Shown here: positions 4,753 through 7,466 of the stretch, in pieces
Layout of the letters: every line of letters begins with the position of its first letter
How positions within the stretch are numbered: position 1 is the first letter of the stretch
Assembly: GCA_021604765.1 (NCBI GenBank)
Contig: BQJP01000001.1
Location: 62,001 to 126,000, forward strand
DNA: 64,000 nt
From: Thermodesulfobacteriota bacterium
GTDB lineage: Bacteria > Desulfobacterota_D > UBA1144 > Nemesobacterales > UBA2774
Direction: 5' to 3'
Made by a program: the position numbers and the translations under genes
Notes under the pieces: model-generated
Told to the model about the DNA's origin: nothing
Database searches by the model: none
What the model saw: only the letters and a program-made list of their open reading frames with translations

Positions 4753-5379
4753 ATGAATAGCCTTGAAGCCAAACTAGACATGGAAGTTATAGCATATCTT
4801 TCGAAAGTTGAAGATATGCCTGAAGTAAAAGCCCTTCTTAGTGGAAGTATCTCCATAGAAGATTACACCAGATTTCTCAAAACTTTTTATATTATTGAAG
4901 ATATAAGCCAGCGAGCTGTTAACCTTGCAAGCGAGGTGACTAAGGAGGCTCATCCCTACTTAAGCCAAAGGTTTGATGTGTGCGCCAAAGGAGAGCTGGG
5001 CCACGCAGAGATAGCCCTTAAAGATTTAGAAGAACTAGGGGTGGGAGGAGGAGTCGATATATCTGAGATATCTGAAGCAGTAGAATACGACACTCTCCTA
5101 CAAGAATGCGCCCAAAAATTTCCTCTTGGTGTTTTAGGACACTCATATCTTTTTGAAAATGCTTCAGGCGTTATGTTCCCAAAACATAAACCCATAGATT
5201 TTCCTTCCAGATTTGTAGAAGTTCATGCTAAAGAAGACCCAGGTCACTCAATTGCTATTAAAAGAACAATTAGACACATTGAGAATGATATTAGTCCTGA
5301 AGATCAAACCCGAATGATTAATTTTGCAAACAAGAGTGGAAAATATTTGCTCGAATTATTTAATAATATTTCTTCATAG
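4753..5379 (+). CDS. Haem-oxygenase-like fold / iron-containing redox enzyme family protein
   Basis: All-helical ORF; YTRFLKTFYIIEDISQRAV..., FVEVHAKEDPGHSIAIKRTI with spaced His/Glu. Confidence 0.5.
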   Translation: MNSLEAKLDMEVIAYLSKVEDMPEVKALLSGSISIEDYTRFLKTFYIIEDISQRAVNLASEVTKEAHPYLSQRFDVCAKGELGHAEIALKDLEELGVGGGVDISEISEAVEYDTLLQECAQKFPLGVLGHSYLFENASGVMFPKHKPIDFPSRFVEVHAKEDPGHSIAIKRTIRHIENDISPEDQTRMINFANKSGKYLLELFNNISS

Positions 5380-5384
5380 TTGAA

Positions 5385-5656
<272 letters not shown>

Positions 5657-5759: not shown

Positions 5760-5823
5760 ACATATCCCACCTTGCTTGAGACCCGTAACTTAAATAATTA
5801 ATATTGCGCAAGGTGAGATATGT
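5760..5823. repeat. 16-bp inverted repeat (1 mismatch) with 32-nt loop
   Basis: ACATATCCCACCTTGC ... GCAAGGTGAGATATGT, just 3' of the HicA-HicB fusion. Confidence 0.7.
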
Positions 5824-5830
5824 TCACACT

Positions 5831-6253
5831 TCAGGAGGCTTGCTTTAACTCAATATAACTAGCAGCATTTCCGGGCTCGGGGACAATAAGGCCCTCTTGT
5901 TTAAGGCCTTCCAAGTGGAGCTTTACTGCTCCCATCATTAACTCCTTGGTTTCTTCTACTGTATCACCTACTACTACGCAACCGGGCAAATCCGGGCTAT
6001 AGGCCGAGAAACAGTTAGAAGATTCCTCGATGGTAAATTCATAATGGTCCTTTCCTACTATTTCTTTTGATTCAAAACATTGGTTGATCGAATGGAATAA
6101 GGCTCCTTCAGCTAACTCTTTATCCATTCTACAGTTAATAGTCAGTCTGCTCTTTTTGCTTCTTAGTTTGAATTGTCTGTGGCATCCGCAAATCCTTACA
6201 AGATACCAACCCTTATTCTCGACTAAGAACTTAATCATCTCTCTAACTCTCAT
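5831..6253 (-). CDS. HicA-HicB fusion protein (toxin and antitoxin domains in one ORF)
   Basis: N-term REMIKFLVENKGWYLVRICGCHRQFKLRSKKSRLTI (HicA-like, keeps the GxHxxF His); C-term YEFTIEESSNCFSAYSPDLPGCVVVGDTVEETKELMMGAVKLHLEGLKQEGLIVPEP (HicB-like). Confidence 0.85.
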   Translation of the reverse strand: MRVREMIKFLVENKGWYLVRICGCHRQFKLRSKKSRLTINCRMDKELAEGALFHSINQCFESKEIVGKDHYEFTIEESSNCFSAYSPDLPGCVVVGDTVEETKELMMGAVKLHLEGLKQEGLIVPEPGNAASYIELKQAS

Positions 6254-6294
6254 TGTAACATCCTCTCTCTCTTGAGTTTCCTTCTTTACCGTCC

Positions 6295-6513
6295 TTATTC
6301 GTCTTTTTGATACATGAGCACATTATCGTACTCTTTGCCCGTCATGTGTTCGTCAAGATAACTGCCTAGAGCTTCTTCTATGATCTTTGACTGACTTGTT
6401 CTACTCATAAATGAATAAAGGCGCAGCCTCTCATAAAGCAAAGCTGGTATATATAGTGAGCCTCTATGCATTTTATTGGGATTGGCTCTTTGTTGTATGG
6501 TTCTTTCAGTCAC
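6295..6513 (-). CDS. Small ribbon-helix-helix (CopG-like) DNA-binding protein
   Basis: MHRGSLYIPALLYERLRLYSFMSRTSQSKIIEEALGSYLDEH is an RHH pattern; GTG start. Confidence 0.65.
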   Translation of the reverse strand: MTERTIQQRANPNKMHRGSLYIPALLYERLRLYSFMSRTSQSKIIEEALGSYLDEHMTGKEYDNVLMYQKDE

Positions 6514-6519
6514 AATTCA

Positions 6520-6548
6520 TTTATAACATCATTACGTAATGATGTCAA
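6520..6548 (-). promoter_or_regulatory. Sigma70-type promoter TTGACA-N17-TATAAA with 20-bp perfect palindrome (6526-6545) in the spacer
   Basis: Minus strand TTGACATCATTACGTAATGATGTTATAAATGAATTGTG; ACATCATTAC/GTAATGATGT perfect palindrome; GTG codon at the expected +1. Confidence 0.85.
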
Positions 6549-6802: not shown

Positions 6803-7267
6803 TTAAATCCATCTGCGGACCTGGCTTTTATATTGTAGGTATTCACTTCCGAATTTGTTTTCAAGGTATGCTTCTTCTCGCTCTATGACGCCTTTTTGCA
6901 TTACGAACATAAAAAATGGGATTAATAACGCTATCCAAAGCGCGTTTAACAATAAGGAGAATGCAATCAATAAGATAGCCATTGAGAGGTACATCGGATT
7001 TCTTGTGTAAGAATAAACGCTTTTTGTAACAATTGTGTTTGTAGGTTTTCTTACATCAACATTAGTGCCGGATTTAACCATGTAAAAGAATGCAAGACCT
7101 GCAGTGAGACCTGCATAAACAAAGAAAATAGCCGAAATAATAGTACTGAGCGGCCCCTCTAATACAGTAAGGGGATAATAACGGTTCAATACATAGCCTA
7201 GAATTAGAAAACATAGAAAAATAAGCGGTGGCGGGGCAATTACACCTGGGTTGTCTTCTTTAGTCAT
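6803..7267 (-). CDS. Isoprenylcysteine carboxyl methyltransferase (ICMT)/PEMT-like membrane methyltransferase
   Basis: TKSVYSYTRNPMYLSMAILLIA; C-term EEAYLENKFGSEYLQYKSQVRRWI. Confidence 0.8.
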   Translation of the reverse strand: MTKEDNPGVIAPPPLIFLCFLILGYVLNRYYPLTVLEGPLSTIISAIFFVYAGLTAGLAFFYMVKSGTNVDVRKPTNTIVTKSVYSYTRNPMYLSMAILLIAFSLLLNALWIALLIPFFMFVMQKGVIEREEAYLENKFGSEYLQYKSQVRRWI

Positions 7268-7268
7268 G

Positions 7269-7466
7269 TTAGTCAGTTGTATCTTTATCCTTTGTTTCCT
7301 CAGAGTCTATTAACTCGTCTTCAGGACTCCTCATTTGTTCCTGAACACTCTGTAAGTTCATTAAATCTTCAAATTCCTTTTCTTTTTGAAGAAGTTCAAG
7401 GAGTTCGGGTGATGATTTAAGAATTTCTTCTATATCTTTTCTGAGACCCTCCGGCCATTTATCCAT
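7269..7466 (-). CDS. Small acidic hypothetical protein
   Basis: ORF immediately upstream of the ICMT-like gene. Confidence 0.5.
   Translation of the reverse strand: MDKWPEGLRKDIEEILKSSPELLELLQKEKEFEDLMNLQSVQEQMRSPEDELIDSEETKDKDTTD

Follow-up and report, generated by a model that had tools for sequence, protein, structure and literature searches.

A HicA-type toxin domain and a small HicB-type antitoxin domain are, on the sequence, encoded as one 140-aa chain in the window (the whole analyzed stretch of 64,000 nt), whereby the HicB part is devoid of a DNA-binding domain and a separate gene for a small ribbon-helix-helix (RHH) protein precedes the fusion. The arrangement is best explained, with reasonable but not full confidence, as an old, vertically inherited and autoregulated operon: DNA binding would be provided by the RHH protein, and the fusion would be a protein that has been domesticated, is inhibited in cis and acts as an RNA binder or an RNase.

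Fusion protein, RHH gene and putative control region

The features of the locus and its flanks are as follows (window coordinates, strand in brackets).

4753..5379 (+), Haem_oxygenas_2-like gene, match below the cut-off, downstream flank
5565..5656 (-), tRNA-Ser(GCT), constant neighbor just 3' of the fusion in eight carriers, genomic context outside the module
5760..5822 (-), hairpin (arms of 16 nt) and a subsequent TTTT, directly 3' of the fusion gene, putative terminator
5831..6253 (-), HicA-HicB fusion protein, 140 aa (Pfam; eight orthologues of identical length)
5834..6046 (-), HicB half, residues 70-140, partial RNase H fold, no DNA-binding extension (Pfam, model, Foldseek)
6047..6079 (-), linker, residues 59-69, weakly conserved in sequence
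6080..6253 (-), HicA half, residues 1-58, with G23 and H25 (Pfam HicA_toxin, model, dN/dS)
6295..6513 (-), RHH protein, 72 aa, putative repressor
6520..6548 (-), promoter-like TTGACA-17 nt-TATAAA (eight aligned upstream regions)
6526..6545 (no strand), perfect 20-bp palindrome ACATCATTACGTAATGATGT, putative RHH operator, identical in seven of the eight loci
6803..7267 (-), ICMT/PEMT methyltransferase gene, upstream flank

The fusion ORF has zero internal stops and matched HicA_toxin (PF07927) on residues 4-52 with 29.4 bits and, further down the chain, HicB_lk_antitox (PF15919) on residues 73-133 with 35.7 bits, the cut-off being 27 bits for both; the two domains were recovered in all eight orthologues. 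This confirmed the preliminary description, which had read the ORF as a fusion and had placed the HicA domain in residues 1-58. The structural model of moderate confidence (pLDDT 72, pTM 0.70) showed an alpha-beta-beta-beta-alpha unit followed by beta-beta-beta-alpha-beta, with no candidate DNA-binding domain past the last strand, and the Foldseek search with it placed HicB structures on top at an E-value of about 0.015, with no matches below 0.001. Both Pfam and the model thus have the chain ending after the HicB fold, as had been proposed. Apart from the HicA half, no further HicA matches were obtained in the genome of the window, and the HicA of this locus was a free small protein in none of the eight carriers. 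A conserved internal start that might produce a free HicB was not found: in-frame ATGs shared by the copies are located only at residues 43 and 106, within the HicA and HicB folds, respectively.

The RHH gene begins with GTG and is separated from the downstream fusion ORF by 41 nt. The window copy scored under the Pfam RHH cut-off (18.8 vs 21.6 bits), and its orthologues matched both RHH_3 and RHH_1 in 8/8 cases (best E-value 2.9e-5), which, together with the ORFs, confirmed the earlier assignment of a separate RHH gene. The leading Foldseek matches obtained with its low-confidence model (pLDDT 66) were also RHH proteins, at weak E-values. Within the C-terminal tail (DNVLMY), residues N64, V65, M67 and Y68 are invariant.

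In the alignment of the eight loci, the start codon of the RHH gene is preceded by the element TTGACATCATTACGTAATGATG, comprising 22 consecutive invariant columns, followed by two variable bases and an invariant ATAA, with few invariant columns further upstream. The palindrome occupies the spacer between the -35-like and -10-like hexamers; it is shortened to 18 bp in one genome, and its spacing to the RHH start codon is constant. The 18-bp core occurs once per genome in all eight carriers, solely at the operon, and its exact form was absent from 53 other genomes searched. A wider RHH regulon was considered and rejected, as the core with up to two mismatches was found nowhere else in the window's genome. 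The claim that DNA binding has been split off to the RHH protein is plausible and is backed by the palindrome in the promoter-like sequence, with the role of the protein and of its operator being putative. Only 6 nt separate the end of the -10-like hexamer from the RHH start codon, which would leave the RHH mRNA with almost no leader. The promoter-like sequence was missed by a consensus promoter scan because the scan requires T at the last -10 base. At the other end of the operon, hairpins 3' of the fusion gene were likewise folded at the other loci, with different sequences in other genera. The fusion start codon is preceded at the eight loci by a leader GAGAGGATG (GCGAGGATG in one of them; 6254..6271 in the window), which includes an ATG 7-9 nt before this codon, in frame in only two loci.

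Occurrence and sequence conservation

The search of 101 genomes, including the window's own, recovered the full stop-free 140-aa fusion in eight genomes from four genera, all belonging to the window's family, with a single length and 65-94% identity to the window copy. The RHH gene, the fusion and the palindrome co-occur in exactly the same eight genomes (the RHH gene was absent from 53 others searched), with the RHH gene preceding the fusion and tRNA-Ser(GCT) alongside in 8/8 loci; the expected co-conservation of the fusion with its RHH neighbor in related genomes was therefore borne out. In a profile search of 387 genomes no stop-free full-length fusion was present outside the family, the best matches there being hicA and hicB as neighboring genes, separated by stops. 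Among the matches listed, ten HicA matches with long open frames included no HicA-HicB fusions, which leaves room for rarer ones. Unfused genes occur in the family as well: an unfused hicA-hicB pair at G014:C105:1596-1999 has 43% and 50% identity to the respective fusion halves, and HicB genes are also present outside the operon locus, e.g., at G007:C2:361946-362155.

The operon was unseen in 8 of the 16 family genomes, and the same eight had no tRNA-Ser(GCT) match. Seven of these eight do have tRNA-Ser genes, or matches to such genes, for other anticodons, and in one of the eight the haem-oxygenase-like neighbor is present on a short contig, close to its end. A tRNA for the AGC/AGU codons should be indispensable and, since it is missing together with the operon, the region is most likely absent from those assemblies, i.e., probably unassembled rather than lost. 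A true loss in the sister genomes is unsupported, given that the adjoining tRNA gene is absent too. Wherever a family member has the tRNA-Ser(GCT) region assembled, the position, order and length of the operon are constant.

The properties typical of mobile type II toxin-antitoxin systems, such as mobility, patchy spread and plasmid or phage copies, were not found, the position beside tRNA-Ser(GCT) being constant instead. No plasmid or phage match to the fusion reached 60% identity, and the annotated ones mostly consisted of two genes. Relatives of the fusion were absent from viral contigs, and the RHH relatives were absent from plasmids and from the viral contigs searched.

The fusion protein is, by its substitution pattern, under strong purifying selection. 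Simple Nei-Gojobori counting (pairwise, within genus) gave dN/dS values of 0.004-0.017 for the HicA half in the pairs that permitted a dS estimate (saturation affected a number of pairs), and these values are rough due to the dS saturation and the length of only 58 codons. The corresponding values were 0.035-0.087 for the HicB half and about 0.05-0.09 for the RHH gene. Between genera, the linker has 45% identity vs 81% in the HicA half, and the whole fusion is at 71-72% vs 56-57% for the ICMT-like and 62-63% for the haem-oxygenase-like neighbors. Constraint is strongest in the HicA half of the fusion, albeit free HicA is also better conserved than free HicB (62% vs 52% identity), and the ranking of the fused halves is therefore partly a family trait. 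The GC3 of the operon genes broadly tracks the host, with 43% for the fusion in the window vs 71% in genome G007.

G23 and H25 of the HicA half are invariant in all eight copies, which upholds the earlier statement that the catalytic-type histidine is retained. H25 aligns with the catalytic His24 of Burkholderia HicA. In the B. pseudomallei protein, G22 and H24 are required for toxicity and S23 is dispensable (PMC3969222); G22, H24 and S23 align, respectively, with G23, H25 and position 24 (S or C) of the fusion. Compared to 14 free relatives, the fused HicA retains G15, W16, G23, H25, R26, Q27, T38 and G50, whereas H30L, G35S/Q, G41C, T51A, S54H/Y and A59C are replacements present in 8/8 fused copies at sites where 12 to 14 of the 14 free copies agree. 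The catalytic pair is thus intact, with other sites remodeled and then frozen. In the HicB half, a single change of this kind relative to its free relatives was seen.

Comparison with known systems and proposed function

The class descriptions available from Gerdes (2024; PMC10865869) comprise 14 HicA classes, with fused HicAB in classes 11-13; HicA-HicB fusions being already known, only the layout is new. A separate RHH gene combined with a HicA-HicB fusion is not among the classes in these descriptions, and an example may be present in the supplementary table (PMC10865869). The combination was also not found in literature searches, including the available passages of a 2009 survey (PMC2701414), and among publications on Dadabacteria and toxin-antitoxin systems no title concerned the operon locus. 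The distribution of a DNA binder and an RNase with its inhibitor over two proteins is undescribed for HicAB.

According to the same class descriptions (PMC10865869), class 11 shares the single chain with HicA followed by HicB, but this chain ends in an HTH or RHH domain at its C-terminus, whereas here the RHH is encoded by a separate preceding gene. Class 1 has the same domain sizes, gene order and small HicB without a DNA-binding domain, but consists of two genes instead of a single ORF; the nearest free hicAB relatives are of this two-gene kind, and next to the examined ones an RHH gene of the present type was not found. Class 12 also contains fused small domains in a chain without a DNA-binding domain, but in the reverse order, HicB-HicA, and an RHH gene is not part of its description. 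Outside HicAB, a separate RHH regulator encoded with toxin-antitoxin genes is known in the omega-epsilon-zeta system of pSM19035, in which the epsilon-zeta genes do not themselves regulate transcription (PMC4803016). However, its toxin and antitoxin are unrelated and are encoded by separate genes on a plasmid in contrast to the fused chromosomal case here, and omega, whose binding sites are heptad repeats, also controls other genes of the plasmid (PMC4803016). The resemblance to tripartite toxin-antitoxin systems extends to the separate RHH gene, present in 8/8 loci, but not to the toxin and antitoxin, which form one chain instead of separate proteins. Toxin and inhibitor domains are likewise combined in one polypeptide in EzeT and CapRel-SJ46, with unrelated domains (PMC4803016 and the available part of PMC10865869).

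In the proposed scheme, a small hicAB module of the class 1 type gave rise to a two-gene operon on the chromosome. Judging by the palindrome, an RHH dimer would bind there and repress the operon, acting in trans in the manner of the RHH or HTH tail of HicB in classical hicAB and, by analogy, of omega for epsilon-zeta. The HicB half is predicted to hold the HicA half in cis, and the latter would serve as a domesticated module of conditional activity, either RNA-binding or an RNase, rather than as a selfish addiction toxin. From the interpretation in the preliminary description, the fusion, the missing HicB DNA-binding domain and the co-conserved RHH gene held up, but the proposition that the toxin is masked unless cleaved was weakened, the linker sequence being unconserved and nothing indicating a protease or an internal start. 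Its option of domestication fits best with the fixed chromosomal position, the strong purifying selection and the absence of mobile copies in the searches.

The retained catalytic Gly and His would also suit a CapRel-like phage sensor, in which recognition of a phage product by the HicB half would release the HicA RNase, a role proposed for fused HicAB in the available text of Gerdes (2024; PMC10865869). This is unlikely, since the HicB half is conserved, whereas a sensor is expected to evolve fast, the operon is fixed beside a tRNA gene, the operon genes and the two neighbors had no matches to PADLOC defense models, and the neighboring genes are ordinary by Pfam. Somewhat less likely still, and at odds with the same invariant Gly/His pair, is that HicA catalysis has been lost and that the RHH protein and the fusion are just one DNA-binding co-repressor complex: several sites typical of free HicA are indeed lost and the putative palindromic operator is found solely at the operon promoter, but a self-repressor with no output would be hard to maintain under such strong selection.

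Even less credit is given to the RHH protein being the true labile antitoxin, whose conserved tail binds the fusion as its toxin. The RHH-first order and the small RHH-plus-tail build do resemble classical RHH antitoxins, and the invariant tail residues would agree with such binding, but the inhibitor is usually HicB, and the HicB half is a complete domain of canonical type, while the tail comprises few residues and is modeled with low confidence. A chance read-through or an assembly artefact joining two genes was suggested by the adjacent hicA and hicB of the nearest free relatives, two of which align through in one frame with stops between the genes; it is already refuted, as the same 140-aa frame is open, with no stop or frameshift between the halves, in eight separate assemblies from four genera with saturated synonymous change.

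The persistence of the layout over a long time suggests that a former selfish toxin module now serves the cell. More tentatively, and with doubt prevailing, a selfish RNase toxin may have been captured whole by one family and have become a core RNA regulator, inhibited in cis, with a dedicated RHH repressor and a single operator. If this capture has taken place, separate RHH genes would be one answer to how a HicB without a DNA-binding domain is regulated, a question asked for such hicBA operons in the available text of Gerdes (2024; PMC10865869), and the separate RHH gene with its single conserved putative operator would make this answer directly testable in the window's lineage. Most toxin-antitoxin modules are patchy and short-lived; here, the operon appears locked into the chromosome and the fusion is more conserved than its neighbors, which would make it a clean case of toxin domestication.

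Neighboring genes

The haem-oxygenase-like and ICMT-like flanking genes recur in the relatives whose contigs were read with enough flank. The operon has its own promoter-like sequence, and therefore no functional link to these neighbors is claimed. At two loci, L127 (genome G007) and L128 (G009), a gene for a sigma-70/ECF-type sigma factor is located upstream of the ICMT-like gene and is adjoined, near the operon, by a gene without a Pfam match; in L127, two genes of the Metal_resist type (heavy-metal resistance) are also located close to the operon. Beside the ICMT-like gene of the window, a 65-aa ORF (7269..7466, minus strand) resembles a part of this Pfam-less gene of L127 and L128.
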